From Streptomyces canus (GTDB taxonomy: Bacteria; Actinomycetota; Actinomycetes; Streptomycetales; Streptomycetaceae): 64,000 nt of DNA. Below the pieces are notes generated by a model. The model searched no databases, was not told the DNA's origin, and worked only from the letters and a program-made list of their open reading frames with translations. The stretch covers positions 10,292,001-10,356,000 of the forward strand of contig NZ_CP107989.1 in assembly GCF_041435015.1 (NCBI RefSeq). The letters are read 5' to 3'. Within the stretch, counting starts at the first letter, position 1, and the number at the start of each line of letters is the position of its first letter. Shown here one piece after another: positions 44,683 to 54,969 of this stretch. Position numbers and translations under genes: made by a program.

Positions 44683-45381
44683 TTGGGAGTGACCTTGTCC
44701 GGATGCGGATGCAGCCGCCGGTGTACCTGCACTGTGACCGCCGGCCCCGGCACGGAAGTCGAGGGCAACGGCAGCACGTCCAACCCCTATGTCGTCAGTG
44801 CCAAGCCGCCCGTCACCGGCTGCGGTCTGACCGGTGACGGCACCGCAGCAGCTCCCCTCGCCGCGCACGTCGGCACTTGGCCGTACGCGTGCGATCTCGA
44901 CACGGTCGCCGGAAGCGTGTACTGCGATCCGGCAACAGACGAGCTGCGCGCCGACCCTCCGTACTGGGCGGACTTCCAGGGAAACCAGGCGACCACGCTT
45001 CTGAGCACCCCGCTTCGGGTGCCGGCTGCGGAGCAGGCGGTGATTGACACGGTCTCCGTCGATATCACGAACCCCGATCTCTGCCGCAGGGCGATCGGGC
45101 TGCTGTTCCGTGAAGTCGACCTGGACTTCGTGCTGCCGCCGAACTCGGGCGCCATGGCCGGTATCGACGGCGACGACATGAACTATTTCGGCAACCAGGG
45201 CAACGGGACGATCTTCAACACGCACTCCCAGGACAACAAGCTCAGCGTCTTCACGCTCAACCCTGGGGAGACGCGCACGATCACGATGAACGTCGAGGCC
45301 GGTCGCGGCAGCGGCGGCGCGACGATCACCAAAATTCAGAAGTCGATTCGCGCCTGGGTCTGGTCGAACCAGTTCAACTGA
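44683..45381 (+). CDS. Phage-type hypothetical structural protein
   Basis: A 232-residue protein with a cysteine-rich start ([12 protein letters not shown]) and a glycine/threonine-rich middle: [40 protein letters not shown]. This pattern is common in tail or appendage proteins of actinophages. The C-terminal half looks like a beta-sandwich ([17 protein letters not shown]). The start could be the TTG at 44683 or the GTG at 44689. It is followed by two more phage-like frames. Function is inferred from context only. Confidence 0.55.
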
Positions 45382-45395
45382 CAGGAGCCGCAGTC

Positions 45396-45686
45396 ATGGC
45401 AGACCAGACCTTTTACTACGAGTACCCGGACGGCTCGATCGCCGAGCGGGTCACGACGGCAGCCGACCCGGAGCATCCGGAAGGCGTGACGCTGCTGACG
45501 GCGGCCGAGTACGCCACGAAGAAGGCGGCGATCGAGGCGGCTCACGCGCAGCAGCAAGCCGACGTCGAGGCGGCGCAGACAGATCAGAAGAAGAACGCGT
45601 ACGACGCGCTGATCACGGCCAACTTCGCCCCCGCTGTAGCGCAGACCCTGTCGGGCTACACGCCGCCGACAGGTGGTGACGCCTGA
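45396..45686 (+). CDS. Phage-type small hypothetical protein
   Basis: A 96-residue protein. An N-terminal MADQTFYYEYPDGSIAERVT is followed by an alanine-rich helix (about 40-80) that may form a coiled coil and a short proline-rich end. From memory such proteins occur between tail and lysis genes of Streptomyces phages. The stop overlaps the start of the next frame. Confidence 0.55.
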   Translation: MADQTFYYEYPDGSIAERVTTAADPEHPEGVTLLTAAEYATKKAAIEAAHAQQQADVEAAQTDQKKNAYDALITANFAPAVAQTLSGYTPPTGGDA

Positions 45687-45825: not shown

Positions 45826-46089
45826 TTACTCGGCGCGGCTTCGCTCCAGGTACACGGATGCGGCGCGCAGGAGCGCAGGGTCGTCCCGGAACTTCCCGAG
45901 GCCGTGGTTGCATGCGGTGCACAACAAGCCGCGGACGCATCCACCGCAGGACGTAGCGGGGCCCGGGCAACAGGTGTGGTCATGATCAATGGACAGGGTG
46001 AGCCCGTTGTCGTCCAGCAGACCGCAGATGGCGCATACGCCGTTCTGACGGGCCAGTGGGTGCCCTACCCGTGCCTTCCGGCAGATCAA
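45826..46089 (-). pseudogene. Endonuclease VII-type HNH nuclease fragment
   Basis: The sequence [19 protein letters not shown] and [20 protein letters not shown] is the zinc-binding His-Me core of phage recombination endonuclease VII, followed by [13 protein letters not shown]. The upstream DNA-binding region is missing, and the only start is a TTG, so it is probably a fragment. Convergent with the endolysin fragment. Confidence 0.6.
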
Positions 46090-46143
46090 CCTGGTCGACG
46101 ACCAGGACGGCCAAGTGTCTATACGCCCAGCGCCGTGCAGCGT

Positions 46144-47172
46144 TCAGTATTGCTCGGTCTCCACGAAATGCGCGTCCGTGTCGCTGTTCGGGCCGAAGGC
46201 GTCGGCGGCGGCGGTCGGGTCGAATGCGGGCGGGCTGTCCTTGAGACCGAGGCCCATGCCGGCGAGCTTTTCCTTGACTTCGTCGATGGACTTCGCACCG
46301 AAGTTGCGGATGTCCATCAGGTCGGCCTCGGAGCGCGCCATGAGCTCGCCCACGGAGTGGATGCCCTCACGCTTGAGGCAGTTGTACGACCGAACGGTGA
46401 GCTCGAGCTCCTCGATCGGCAGGGCGAGATCAGCGGCAAGGGCGGCGTCCGTGGGGGACGGGCCCATGTCGATGCCCTCGGCGTCGATGTTGAGCTCGCG
46501 GGCGAGACCGAACAGCTCGACCAGGGTCTTACCGGCCGACGCCATGGCGTCACGCGGACGCATGGCCTGCTTGGTCTCGACGTCGACGATCAGCTTGTCG
46601 AAGTCGGTGCGCTGCTCGACACGGGTCGCCTCGACCTTGTACGTGACCTTGAGCACGGGGCTGTAGATGGAGTCGACCGGGATACGGCCGATCTCCTGGC
46701 CCACCTGCTTGTTCTGCACGGCGGAGACGTAACCGCGGCCACGCTCGACCGTGAGCTCCATCTCCAGCTTGCCCTTGCCCTTGCCGTTGAGCGTGGCGAG
46801 GACGAGGTCGGGGTTGTGCACCTCGACACCGGCCGGGGGCGCGATGTCGGCGGCGGTGACCAGACCCGGGCCCTGCTTGCGCAGGTACATCACGACCGGC
46901 TCGTCCTGCTCGCTGCTGACGACCAGCTGCTTGATGTTGAGGATCAGGTCGGTGACGTCCTCCTTGACGCCCGGCACGGTGGTGAACTCGTGCAGGACGC
47001 CGTCGATGCGGATGCCGGTGACAGCAGCGCCGGGGATCGACGACAGGAGGGTGCGGCGGAGGGAGTTGCCGAGGGTGTAGCCGAAGCCCGGCTCCAGCGG
47101 CTCGATCACGAACCGGGAGCGGAAATCCTCGACGACCTCTTCGGTCAGGGACGGACGCTGAGCAATCAGCAC
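46144..47172 (-). CDS. rpoA: RNA polymerase alpha subunit, extra genomic copy
   Basis: A 342-residue full-length alpha subunit. The N-terminal dimerisation domain is intact ([40 protein letters not shown]), as is the C-terminal DNA-binding domain ([40 protein letters not shown]). The GTG start with GGAGG 11 bases before it and the C-terminal FVETEQY match Streptomyces rpoA. A GGCAAG hexamer is present three times (46768-46785), giving GKGKGK where I recall GKGK, which would explain a length of 342 rather than 340. None of the ribosomal-protein neighbours (rpsK, rpsD, rplQ) is present. It lies between phage fragments and IS remnants, so it is almost certainly a second copy. Confidence 0.92.
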
Positions 47173-47509
47173 GTGGTGTTGCCTCCAGTGGTTTGGCGCC
47201 CGCCATGGGGCGCCGTGGACACCATGAAGGGTACGGGGGACAGGGACGATACGGCTTCGCAGAGGCCGAACGGCCCTTCTGCCCAACCCGGAGAGGAGGT
47301 TTCGGGCCAACCGTTCCTGTTTGGCCCGCGCCCAGCTCTCGGGCGCGGAGGACGGCAAGCGGCAGGGTGTCGCGCTCTACCAGCTCGGCCCAGGCGGCTG
47401 GTTCCAGGCCGGTGAGGCTAGGGTGAGCGAGCCAGGCGGGGGTCTTGTCGCCAGCCGGGAAGCGCCCGAACTTCGGTGGCTTCTTGGCTTCTTGGCTTCT
47501 TGGCGGCTT

Positions 47510-47967
47510 GTGGGGCGAGTCCGGCGGGGCGGAGCGTGTAGTTCCAGGTGCCGTGCCACTCGTGGCGGGCTGAGCGGCAGACGCTCCATGACGCCGTCGG
47601 AGGCGACGACGTCGGTGGGGTAAGCGCCGGGGTCGAGCTCGGCGTGGACGGCCGGCCCGGTGCGAGTTCGGGGCGCACCGATAGTGCTGACCACGACTTC
47701 ATGGCAGGTCAGGGGCCTGGCGCACCAGTTGATGCTGATCTGGGAGAACAGTCGGTGCTCTATTTTATTCCACTTTGAAGTACTCAGCGGGAAGTGACAA
47801 ACGGTCATCTCCAGACCGCTCTCGTGGGCGAAAGCGGCGAGCTCGCTCTTCCAGGCGCGGACCCGGTAGCCGTTGGATCCGCCGGCGTCCGCGGTAATCA
47901 ACAGGCGGGCGGCACGTGGGTAGCGGTGCCTTCCCTCCCCGTCCCACCAGCGGCGCAGGGTGGCCAC
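47510..47967 (-). pseudogene. ISAzo13-type transposase remnant
   Basis: It reads ARLLITADAGGSNGYRVRAW, then ESGLEMTVCHFPLSTSKWNK and IEHRLFSQISINWCARPLTC, then in another frame HEWHGTWNYTLRPAG. These are the catalytic C-terminal stretches of ISAzo13-family transposases. The N-terminal half is missing and the end is frameshifted. Confidence 0.7.
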
Positions 47968-47984
47968 GGCGAAGGACCTCGACG

Positions 47985-48130
47985 GCGAGCAGGCTGCCCG
48001 GCTGCTGGCGGCGCTCCTGACGCTTCGTGACCGGATCCTTGACCCACTTGTAGAACCACGACTCGCTCACCCCCAGCACTCGGCAGGCCACGCGGTGCGG
48101 GAGGCCAACTCCGTGAGCCTCGAAATTTCG
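47985..48130 (-). pseudogene. IS3-family OrfB N-terminal fragment
   Basis: About 45 codons, GLPHRVACRVLGVSESWFYK followed by WVKDPVTKRQERRQ, match the helix-turn-helix start of IS3 OrfB. It is joined directly to the ISAzo13 remnant. Confidence 0.6.
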
Positions 48131-48269
48131 TGACGGTCCGCCGAGGGAGTCGGTGGACCGTTTTCGTGCCATGGGCTGGGGCTGCGCAGGCTGAAGACCC
48201 GAGTGTCGCCTCGGGATGGCGCCGGATTCCACTGCTTTGGGTGTTGAGGTGCTGTCGAAGGGGCGGGGC

Positions 48270-48605
48270 ATCCATTGGTCAGACTGGGTCCGGGGAGTTG
48301 GTTGAGCCGGTCGAGGGCGGCGGTGATGTGGTTGCTCCAGGGCCGGTGCCGGGCCAGGCGGAGGATACGCCGATGGCCGGTGGTCACGCGTTGCCCGGCC
48401 GTGGTGAACGGGCGGAGCCGCAGGCGGCGGGGCGAGTCTGGTCTTGCTGGTCAGTGCGAGCATCGGCATCCAGGCCGGCGGGTCCAGCGCGATCTGCACG
48501 ATCTCCAGCCAGATCCGGTTCTGGGTCGTGCGGTGCAGGGGGAGATTCCGCAGGCCGGTGGCCCGGGCGGCGCGGATGCGGTCTTCGGCACGGGTGCGCT
48601 GGCGG
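48270..48605 (-). pseudogene. IS1380-family transposase C-terminal remnant
   Basis: It reads EDRIRAARATGLRNLPLHRT, then QNRIWLEIVQIALDPPAWMP, and after frameshifts LRLARHRPWSNHITAALDRL. This is the end of IS1380-type transposases with the conserved E-x-RIR...TGLRNLPLH motif. At least one frameshift and loss of the front part. Confidence 0.6.
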
Positions 48606-48790
48606 TCTGGCCACGGCGGATGCCTCGGCCAGGGCCTGTCAGGCCTGCGGGGTCTTTGCATCTCGGGTGAAAGGCTCCGCGACCACCCGGCCCCGGGATA
48701 TCCCTTGTGACGAGCGCGTGCTGGAGTTGTTGTGGCACAAGCGGCGCTGGTGGTGCCGCGAACCGGCATGCCTTCGGCCCCCACCCCCTT
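48595..48790 (+). pseudogene. ISL3-family transposase N-terminal fragment
   Basis: It reads CQACGVFASRVKGSATTRPR, then DIPCDERVLELLWHKRRWWC and REPACLRP, the zinc-finger front of ISL3-type transposases. The rest is missing. Together with the three preceding remnants it forms a 1.4-kb stack of dead insertion sequences. Confidence 0.65.
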
Positions 48791-48835
48791 GTCAGGGGCA
48801 TGGCCCTCTTCTACAGTCCCCGGATACGGAGATTG

Positions 48836-48849
48836 TGGGAGCGCTCCCA
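48836..48849. promoter_or_regulatory. CebR box
   Basis: TGGGAGCGCTCCCA, the exact 14-bp palindrome bound by the cellobiose-responsive repressor CebR in Streptomyces. It lies 94 bp upstream of the expansin-like gene and predicts induction by cellobiose or cellotriose. Confidence 0.9.
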
Positions 48850-48942
48850 TGGGTGAGGTGTTCCAGCGCTCACTCCCCTCCCTCCGAGAGGACTCCCATA
48901 CGAACGTCACGGCGCCCCGTCACGAAGAAGGCGGATCCCCCC

Positions 48943-50253
48943 ATGCAGCTTCTTTCGACCCTCCGCTCGCCCGCCCGAAAGCGCACCGCCACGTTGCTGG
49001 CAGCGCTCTGCTGCGCCGCGTTGCCCGTCGTGGCCGCGGCGGCCCAGCCGCCCGTGGCGAGTACCGCCGCCACTGAGGTCCTGGGCAACGCGACCCACTT
49101 CGCCGCGCTCGGCAGCCCCTACGGCGGCTGCGGTCTGCCGCAGCGCGAACTGGACAGCCAGGACTTCGTGGCGCTCAACGTGTTCAACACACCCGGCGAC
49201 TACGCGAGCACCTACCCCCGCCCGGTGCCGGACTCGAACGCCTCGGTCAAAGGCGTCTTCGACAACGGCCGCAACTGCGGCCGCTGGGTCAAGGTCACCA
49301 TCGGGGACTACTGCACCGGCTCCAATGACGGCGCCCCGGGCCAGCCCTTCTGCCGCAACGGCTCCTGGGTGGCCGACAAGTACAACGGGGCCACCCTGAA
49401 CATGCTCGTCGCGGACAGCTGCGCCGATTCCAACGCCTGGTGCCGGGACGACCCCAACCACCTCGACCTGGCAACCGACTCCCTCAACCGCTTCCGGATC
49501 GGCGGCACCCCAGCGGGGACGATGTACCCGGACCACTGGAACAACCGTCACGTCTCCTGGAGCTTCGTCCCGGCCCCGGACTACAGCGGTGACATCCGTA
49601 TCGGCTTCCTCAGGGGAGCCCAGCGGTACTGGCCCGCCATCGCCGTCTCCCATCTGCCGGACGGCATCCACGGCGTCCAGTACCTGGCGAACGGCACCTG
49701 GACCGATGCCACGATGAACAGCGACATGGGGCAGTCCTACGTCATCGGCGCGACGGCCTCCGGTCAGAGCAGCTTCACGATACGGATCCGCGACGCGGCC
49801 GACGCCTGGCTGGGCGGCAGCCGAACGTACTCCTTCTCGCTGCCGTCAGGCTGCGCGGGAGGCTGCCCGCAGGACTACACCGCCGTCCCCTACACCACCG
49901 ACAGCTCTGGAGGGACGCCATCTCCCACTCCCGCGCCGAGCCCCTCGGGCGACACCGCCTGCACGGCCCAGTGGAAGCTGACCGGCTCATGGCAGGGCGG
50001 ATACCAGGCCGACGTCACGGTCACCAACACCGGGTCCCGGCCGGTCACCGGCTGGTCGGTGCACCACACCCTGCCGGGCGGTGTGACCGTGGCGAACCGC
50101 TGGAACGCGGTGGTGGATCCGTCCCTCCCCGCCACCACGGTTCACAACGCCACGTACAACGGCTCGCTGGCACCGGGCGCGTCGACGACCTGGGGGATGA
50201 CGCTCAGCGGCGACGACCGAGACCTCGGCACACTCTCCTGCACCGCGTCCTGA
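48943..50253 (+). CDS. Secreted expansin-like protein with CBM2
   Basis: A 436-residue secreted protein. A signal peptide (about residues 1-37, arginine-rich start, hydrophobic LLAALCCAALPVVAAAA) is followed by a double-psi beta-barrel expansin/RlpA-like domain (about 45-180). That domain has several cysteines and the conserved HLDLA aspartate. An immunoglobulin-like second expansin domain (about 195-315) follows, then a proline/threonine linker and a C-terminal CBM2 cellulose-binding module (about 335-436, CTAQWKLTGSWQGGYQADVT). It loosens cellulose without hydrolysis, helping the adjacent GH5 enzyme. A CebR box lies upstream. The next gene starts 17 bases after the stop, so they form an operon. 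Confidence 0.87.
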   Translation: MQLLSTLRSPARKRTATLLAALCCAALPVVAAAAQPPVASTAATEVLGNATHFAALGSPYGGCGLPQRELDSQDFVALNVFNTPGDYASTYPRPVPDSNASVKGVFDNGRNCGRWVKVTIGDYCTGSNDGAPGQPFCRNGSWVADKYNGATLNMLVADSCADSNAWCRDDPNHLDLATDSLNRFRIGGTPAGTMYPDHWNNRHVSWSFVPAPDYSGDIRIGFLRGAQRYWPAIAVSHLPDGIHGVQYLANGTWTDATMNSDMGQSYVIGATASGQSSFTIRIRDAADAWLGGSRTYSFSLPSGCAGGCPQDYTAVPYTTDSSGGTPSPTPAPSPSGDTACTAQWKLTGSWQGGYQADVTVTNTGSRPVTGWSVHHTLPGGVTVANRWNAVVDPSLPATTVHNATYNGSLAPGASTTWGMTLSGDDRDLGTLSCTAS

Positions 50254-53237: not shown

Positions 53238-53528
53238 GTGAGTGTGGCGAGATGCTCGAACCGCAGCCCACAGGGGAGTCGTCGGCTCCCGGACTCCAGG
53301 GGTGAAACCGGTCGGCGGTTCTTCGCGGTGCACGAAATCCCGGTGGCGGCACGGCACCGACTGCAGCAACACGTGCGGGATACCTACGACGTCGCCCTGG
53401 ACGTGTTCGACGGGCAGGCTGTGGCCGGCATGCTCACCCAGGGCGACCGGGTCTGGATCGCCCAGCGGTTTCTGGATCTGCCCTCGTCGATGATCCCGGA
53501 CGAGCCGGCCGAGACACATCCGGACTAG
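53238..53528 (+). CDS. Hypothetical protein fragment
   Basis: A 96-codon frame whose second half reads like protein: RRFFAVHEIPVAARHRLQQH, VRDTYDVALDVFDGQAVAGM and TQGDRVWIAQRFLDLPSSMI. A similar pattern (RDTY..EIEVFD..AIA..L....WIAERFL.LP) is remembered from larger actinobacterial proteins of unknown function. It ends at the CTAG that bounds the IS701 element and is probably a remnant of a longer gene. Confidence 0.35.
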   Translation: MSVARCSNRSPQGSRRLPDSRGETGRRFFAVHEIPVAARHRLQQHVRDTYDVALDVFDGQAVAGMLTQGDRVWIAQRFLDLPSSMIPDEPAETHPD

Positions 53529-54969
53529 TAGGGCTTGGTCAGGTTGGTATCGGGGTGGGTATGTTGCGGCGGCAGGTGGGGCAGGCGCCGGTCCAGGTGG
53601 CAAGGAGTGTCTGCAGTTCCCGGACCACTTGATAGAGGCTCAGGCTCGCGCCGTGTCTTTTGGGTCTCGTGCCAGTCGTTGCAGGGTGCAGAAGGCGTGG
53701 GCGGCGGAGACGAGGGTGACGTGGTGGTGCCAGCCACCCCAGGTGCGGCCCTCGAAATGGGCCAGGCCCAGGCTTGTTTCATCTCGCGGTAGTCGTGTTC
53801 GATGCGCCAGCGCAGTTTGGCGAGCCGGACCAGGGTGGCCAGTGGCATGCCGGAGGGCAGGCTGGAGAGCCAGAACTGCACGGGTTCGGGTTGGGTGGCC
53901 GGCCACTCGGCCAGCAGCCAGCGTTCAGGCAGTTCAGGACCGTCGGTGGCCTGACGGACGCCGTGTCCGGCCGGGCGGATGCGCAGAGCCACGAACCGCG
54001 AGTACATACGTCTGAAGCCGCTGATCCCTTTGGCTGGGCGGGAGCCCTGGCGCCAGGACACCGGCCTCGCGGCCGTCCTACCGGCCGCGATGACCAGCTC
54101 TTTCACGGTCTGTGCAGGCTCGGAGTACTGCATCTTCGGTGGCCGGCCGGTGCCCGCATAGGCGGGCCGGACGAGCTGGACCCCGGCCGGATGGGCGGTG
54201 TGACGGCCGGAGATACCGACCGCGTAGGGCAGATCGCGCTCTTCCAGACCGCGGCGGAAGGCGGCGGCATCGCCGTATCCGGCGTCCGCGACGACCAGGG
54301 GAATGTCGATGCCCCACGACCGCGTCTCGTCGATCATGTCCAGGGCCAGCTGCCACTTCTCCACATGCCCCACATGAGCGCGGATCCCGCAGCGGGTGCG
54401 GCGGGCGACCTCGCCCGGGTCCGCTTCGGGGGAGGCGGGATCCCAGGAAGCGGGCAGGAACAGCCGCCAGTTCACCGCGGCCGAGGCATGATCCCGGGCC
54501 AGGTGCAGCGACACCCCCACGTGGCACTTGGTGACCTTGCCAGCGGTGCCGGTGTACTGCCGCGACACACACGCCGACGCGTCCCCGTCCTTCAGAAGGC
54601 CGGTGTCATCGACGATCAGCGCCTCCGGGCCGATCGCCTCGTGCATCCTCCAGGCCAGCCGGGCCCGCACATGCGCCGGATCCCACGGACTGGAAGTGAT
54701 GAAATGCGCCAGCGCCTGACGGTTACCGTCCTCACCCAGCCGGGCCGCCATCGGCTCCACCGATTTACGCCGGCCGCCCAGCAGCAGCCCGCGCACATAC
54801 GCCTGCCCCCACCGCCGCTGATCCGTACGGAAGAACCCGTCGAACAACTCCGCCGCGAACGCCTCCAGGTCCTCCCGGAGCGAGGCCATTTCCTCAGGTG
54901 TCACACCACCCCAACGACGCTCATGGACCAGCGGACACGCCACCCACGAATGAAGATGACCAAGCCCTA
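53529..54969. mobile_element. IS701-family insertion sequence
   Basis: A 1441-bp element with perfect inverted ends TAGGGCTTGGTCA (53529-53541 and, inverted, 54957-54969) and CTAG on both flanks (53525-53528, 54970-54973), the expected 4-bp target for this family. It contains one minus-strand transposase gene with a single frameshift. Its right CTAG is shared with the next element. Confidence 0.88.
53640..54904 (-). pseudogene. IS701-family transposase, frameshifted near the end
   Basis: From the GTG at 54904 the frame encodes about 375 residues of IS701 transposase: RRKSVEPMAARLGEDGNRQA, ALIVDDTGLLKDGDASACVS, DIPLVVADAGYGDAAAFRRG and LRWRIEHDYREMKQ. At 53780 the correct continuation, LGLAHFEGRTWGGWHHHVTL and SAAHAFCTLQRLARDPKDT, lies in another frame ending at 53640. 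The shift falls at AAACAAGCC just after the DYREMK motif that holds the catalytic glutamate. It may be a mutation or a programmed event; an upstream start at 54943 is also possible. Confidence 0.8.

Follow-up and report, generated by a model that had tools for sequence, protein, structure and literature searches.

We identified an intact second rpoA-like gene, encoding an RNA polymerase alpha subunit, on the minus strand of the window (the whole stretch of 64,000 nucleotides from Streptomyces canus analysed here; Table 1). Alpha serves bacterial RNA polymerase as assembly platform and as a main site at which regulators dock; as a rule it is taken to be single-copy. The reading frame has no stop, frameshift or TTA codon, and in third-position GC (0.915) it equals the canonical gene of the same genome. 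The N-terminal dimerisation and insert domains and the C-terminal domain are all present in the protein (the Pfam families RNA_pol_A_bac, RNA_pol_A_CTD and RNA_pol_L all exceed their cut-offs). It aligns over its full length (342 vs 340 residues) with the canonical Streptomyces alpha of the best solved chain, 7vpd_A, which we take to be that of Streptomyces coelicolor.

Only one other full-length rpoA was found in the genome (10.68 Mb, 5 contigs). This is the canonical gene (G000:C1:4246103-4247122:-), which lies 6.1 Mb from the window gene on the same 10,394,168-base contig. The two proteins are ~95% identical and the DNA differs by ~5%. The window copy carries 51 nucleotide differences, 14 amino-acid substitutions (8 of them at position 307 onward) and 2 inserted residues relative to its own canonical gene (dN 0.030, dS 0.120), and is also set apart by another leader and a GTG start. 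An earlier note, made from the letters alone, had described an intact extra rpoA outside the ribosomal-protein operon, with both functional domains and a ribosome-binding site of its own, and all of this holds; the possibility that it is the sole rpoA of the genome does not. Family searches gave one match each for rpoB (PF00562) and rpoC (PF04997), and thus no sign of a separate polymerase in this genome.

Table 1. Features at and around the second rpoA, in window coordinates.
Feature	Coordinates	Strand	Basis or remark
Second rpoA	46144..47172	-	342 codons; GTG start 47172-47170, stop 46146-46144; frame 100% open
GGCAAG x3 (GKGKGK)	46768..46785	-	One unit above canonical
Ribosome-binding site TGGAGGCA	47180..47187	-	Family-typical; junction pattern in 59/61 second copies, 0/46 canonical
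Conserved leader block	47195..47214	-	Here GGCGCCCCATGGCGGGCGCC, 17/20 vs GGCGTCACATAGCGGGCGCC
Further conserved leader stretch, CCCGTACCCTTCATGGTGTCC region	47217..47239	-	Alignment
DNA common to the second copies of genomes G193 and G009 (outer limits)	46115..47361	-	Gene plus up to ~190 bases upstream
Phage endonuclease VII match	45829-46089	-	Pfam/PHROG searches
Open reading frame	44683-45378		No PHROG or Pfam family matched
Open reading frame	45396-45683		No PHROG or Pfam family matched
Transposase-like open reading frame	47765-48910	-	Pfam matches under cut-offs
Open reading frame with cellulose-binding domain CBM_2	48130-50253		70.5 bits
DDE_5 transposase reading frame	53525-54943		Full match, 315 bits

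The surroundings fit the earlier description of phage fragments and dead insertion sequences only in part. The endonuclease VII match supports it, but two other reading frames match no phage or protein family, and the transposase-like frame stays below the cut-offs. Because the DDE_5 transposase match is full length, the mobile elements of the window are not all fragments. The reading frame with the cellulose-binding domain lies just past the transposase-like stretch, on the upstream side of the second rpoA.

The leader of the window copy matches second copies elsewhere, not its own canonical rpoA. Four second copies in other genomes outscore canonical ones, and upstream DNA is common to these and the window copy. 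The GTG start and a GGAGGC-type ribosome-binding site of the family are present. At least 18 of the 20 positions of the leader block are matched in 52 of 59 second copies, and the window copy has three changes there. The score of the rpsD terminator hairpin is reached by 12 of 59 second-copy leaders (1/59 when shuffled) and by 19 of 46 canonical leaders (1/46 when shuffled); the window leader falls below it, and a retained hairpin is suggestive only as a mark of origin. One canonical rpoA (L022, genome G158) has an ATG start together with a ribosome-binding site and leader end of the second-copy type (CTGGAGGC).

A second rpoA of the same leader and start type occurs in at least 63 of the 392 genomes of the genus (66 places), so the gene is not singular. 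The search used a 235-base leader probe (229 bases upstream of the start and the first 7 inside; query coordinates 47166-47400). Hits at E 0.001 or better occurred in 101 of the 392 genomes, and a second copy was called at E <=2e-7 if the match extended to probe base 222 or further, at or close to the gene start. Weaker hits fall in other parts of the probe, except in G008 (E 5.9e-4, 69% identity, match reaching the gene start), which was not counted. The count is a lower bound, as scoring was limited to two candidates in each genome and missed G286, whose second copy has a matching leader. By the leader, the family is present in 25 of 49 genomes of at least 10.0 Mb and in 21 of 246 smaller ones (Fisher p 5e-11, kinship ignored).

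In the protein search, the majority of 295 genomes had a single alpha match. Among genomes with extra protein matches and no strong leader hit, we inspected a further 15. Nine of these encode a full-length second copy, and the form of the leader block was recognisable by eye in 7 of the 9 leaders read. The others have shortened copies (G191 and G242, the latter with an internal stop), a single gene split across contigs (G115) or weak fragments only (G025, G060, G234). The junction pattern was found in 98 stretches of named genomes, which overlap with the 392-genome set and are not independent of it. Among the 80 listed are 77 from Streptomyces, one from Actinacidiphila glaucinigra and two from Actinobacteria bacterium OV320; 47 of the genes are full length, 29 run past the end of the available sequence and 4 have a premature stop. 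An order-wide leader search (281 of 293 genomes) was uninformative on second copies, since the probe also matches canonical rpoA. A literature search (titles and abstract starts, with subscription papers mostly outside it) returned no description of a second Streptomyces rpoA, a slight indication that the family is new to the literature.

We analysed 63 of the 66 places (G146, G084 and G373, near contig ends, were not fetched). An open frame of 330-360 codons plus stop was obtained for 54, and removal of G333, G069 and G033 left the 51 second copies used below. They were compared with 46 canonical genes (the window genome's own, 25 from the protein search and 20 from a later set). Five of the 63 fetched copies are disrupted internally (G333, G339, G317, G350, G295) and in two others the tail is shifted (G069, G033). 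Thus, the second rpoA is dispensable, at least in the carriers concerned. A contig end truncates five more (G319, G281, G336, G302, G279), all in draft genomes. Contigs end within the second rpoA at loci L088, L105, L107, L115 and L122. Draft assemblies probably undercount the family. One genome has a pair of second copies with identical coding sequence near opposite chromosome ends (G254:C1:608646 and G254:C1:10932054), as would fit a position in a terminal repeat.

Plasmids also carry the gene. An alpha match was found in 87 plasmid records, 21 of them from Streptomyces. The four Streptomyces records that we opened are linear (0.2 to 1.3 Mb), and in the three that are annotated the vicinity of the alpha gene includes transposases, replication or toxin-antitoxin genes. 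The leader block is present in all four genes but the start is ATG, and they therefore look like a sister branch. Carriage by phages was considered and set aside: 20 phage records match, all at <60% identity, and none of those listed is titled Streptomyces.

No constant neighbour of the second rpoA was identified within 7 kb at 60 loci, nor does any resistance, biosynthetic or phage gene recur beside it there. Neighbours were clustered as stop-to-stop reading frames of at least 100 aa at 60 of 63 loci (G254a, G142b and G295 omitted). The widest cluster spans at most 10 loci, and the distances of its members from rpoA are scattered; the two that follow in size represent one region directly upstream of rpoA. 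The family occurs in many unrelated contexts, but G110 and G013 have ~10 kb in common. In the upstream region lies a divergent gene of ~73 aa, which adjoins the second rpoA at 12 loci by motif (L097:7700-8100 and 11 similar), within 600 bases at 11 of them. Its start is CarD/RID-like, with a profile match slightly under the cut-off, and of 8 linked genomes searched, 7 have no other copy at >80% identity. Binding to RNA polymerase is a property of CarD-type domains, and the sequences offer a hint that this gene might be a partner of the second alpha. In the genome of the window, it occurs elsewhere with no adjacent rpoA.

Coding sequences and leaders tell different histories. Synonymous distances of second copies to their own canonical gene are 0.07-0.29, often below the median between second copies (0.249). 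The coding-sequence tree repeatedly pairs second copies with the canonical gene of the same genome (e.g., G067, G068, G207, G063, G040 and G161) and requires 15 changes between second and canonical labels, vs 32.5 in shuffles. The leader tree, which has few columns and few supported forks (G333, G295, G212b and G254a omitted), requires only 2. An independent, fresh duplication in each genome would be allowed by the coding-sequence tree but is disfavoured by the leader tree. The window copy clusters with its own canonical rpoA and that of G141, slightly closer to the latter. Exchange may be older than the split of these two genomes, or the window copy may have been acquired from such a relative.

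Pairing within genomes varies along the gene (21 same-genome pairs, G212b omitted). It is strongest in codons 91-230, where second copies differ from the resident gene at a mean of 8.48 positions vs 21.06 when compared with canonical genes from the remaining 20 genomes (0 of 20,000 permutations as low). Pairing is also seen in codons 21-90 and in codons 231-312, but it is weak in codons 1-20 (4.86 vs 5.51 differences) and undetectable in the tail (9.24 vs 9.47; 4865 of 20,000 permutations). The middle of the gene resembles the resident rpoA, as expected from gene conversion, while the leaders unite the second copies. The simplest reading of these patterns is an old family that has been partly overwritten from the resident rpoA. 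Overwriting is only partial, as second copies still cluster in the coding-sequence tree beyond chance.

The second copies encode 49 distinct proteins among 51, and the canonical genes 5 among 46. Mean pN/pS in five regions from codon 1 to the tail is 0.014, 0.147, 0.040, 0.108 and 0.357 for the second copies and 0.000, 0.044, 0.017, 0.030 and 0.008 for the canonical genes; these are pairwise means over related sequences, without a formal test, and are depressed by conversion. From the codon comparisons, the second copies look to be under purifying selection that is weaker than on canonical rpoA. Because gene conversion lowers pN/pS, low values can arise without use of the copy. In the comparison of the window gene with its own canonical gene, 22 of 51 differences are nonsynonymous, whereas an unconstrained gene should show 75% (binomial p 1.5e-6). 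This signal of constraint comes from codons 91-312, where nonsynonymous to synonymous ratios are 0:7 and 4.5:9.5; the ratio is 9.5:4.5 in codons 1-90 and 8.5:7.5 in the tail.

The window copy stands out within the family. Canonical rpoA has two GGCAAG units, and the third unit in the window copy adds one GK pair. This triplication, correctly read in the earlier note as an addition of two residues, is private to the window copy (0/50 other second copies and 0/46 canonical genes). With 8 private residues (2 of them the inserted G and K), the window copy is the top of 51; the next has 4 and the median is 1. Given these residues and the changed leader block, constraint on this copy may be relaxed, and it is perhaps decaying. 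Accumulation of random changes, raised earlier as a reason to doubt the gene, does not describe the family, in which pN/pS is below 1 in every region; the lead of the window copy in private residues is what remains of that concern.

The differences between second and canonical alpha concentrate in the core of the C-terminal domain and in the tail. Around the arginine that binds beta and around the residues of the C-terminal domain that contact DNA, presumably assigned correctly by mapping to E. coli alpha numbering, the window and canonical proteins have the same sequence. Among the second copies, the 12- and 13-residue segments are invariant in 51/51 and the 11-residue segment in 49/51.

The window gene is one member of an accessory, single-gene family of second alpha subunits in Streptomyces-type genomes (for which we propose the label rpoA2), and we consider the chances about even that it is a dispensable spare able to join the ordinary RNA polymerase. 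The family would have originated by duplication of rpoA plus the preceding intergenic region, and would be overwritten now and then by the resident rpoA. Translation is predicted to start from the gene's own leader, independently of the ribosomal-protein operon, and the protein to dimerise normally, with an N-terminal domain matched to the host, and to enter the ordinary polymerase as a spare or condition-specific alpha. As the dimerisation and beta-binding parts stay host-matched, we infer that the product should join the normal enzyme. Its differences from the first alpha would lie chiefly in the core of the C-terminal domain and in the acidic tail.

The second rpoA could instead be a useless passenger of chromosome ends and plasmids, refreshed by recombination with the essential rpoA, with the window copy decaying. 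This is a lesser but real possibility, in keeping with the disrupted copies, the many private residues of the window copy, the 9.5:4.5 ratio in its codons 1-90 and its altered leader block. It does not sit easily with the low pN/pS of codons 1-20, a stretch that pairs only weakly with the resident gene, or with a value still below 1 in the tail, where no pairing is detectable. Moreover, the start, ribosome-binding site and leader block are maintained family-wide, and 51 of 63 fetched copies are intact, with 5 more merely cut by contig ends. A copy that evades a phage protein or antibiotic directed against alpha, or that alters the response to activators, as the earlier note suggested, is improbable. 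Regulators do contact alpha at the C-terminal domain and tail, where the differences gather, but the DNA- and beta-binding segments are unchanged, substitutions in the domain core are mostly conservative, and the surveyed neighbourhoods and binding segments give no evidence for a role in phage or antibiotic resistance. We know of no antibiotic that targets alpha. An assembly or contamination artefact, which the repeat-like ends of five draft-genome copies at contig ends inside the gene might suggest, is hardly credible, as both copies lie on one 10.39-Mb contig with distinct leaders and flanks and ~5% DNA difference, and the same kind occurs in one-contig genomes (e.g., G009, G013, G110 and G193).

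The nearest known system to the proposed accessory alpha is that of Francisella, likewise a bacterium with two rpoA genes. These genes (alpha1/alpha2) are attributed to lineage-specific duplication and are present in all sequenced genomes of that genus, and their products assemble as an oriented heterodimer (PMC3294249). Unlike this pair, the Streptomyces second gene is accessory and not genus-wide, keeps its beta-binding segment and is homogenised with the first; diverged assembly determinants of the Francisella type were not found, given the invariant 12-residue segment. Rare actinomycetes offer another case of an extra polymerase subunit gene, rpoB2, a second beta gene with rifampicin-resistance mutations, described in a paper that names rpoA among conserved essential genes (PMC13118837). 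Unlike that type, the genome of the window has one rpoB family match and no indication of a specialist polymerase.

A broader proposal, which we regard as unlikely but worth stating, is that some large-genome actinomycetes owe a mixed RNA polymerase to a second alpha that is mobile and not fixed. Recombination would keep the N-terminal half, which serves assembly, in step with the host and leave the C-terminal domain and tail free to evolve, so that the copy would provide alpha with a regulatory half that can be exchanged. It would come into use under a plasmid or chromosome-arm programme, or while the ribosomal-protein operon is off.

For work on Streptomyces genomes, rpoA is not safely single-copy for typing or expression studies. 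A recurrent, dispensable and partly plasmid-borne alpha serves as a natural experiment for learning which regions of the subunit have to fit the host. If the second alpha is a real component of the enzyme, the polymerase of this antibiotic-producing genus could be mixed in composition.
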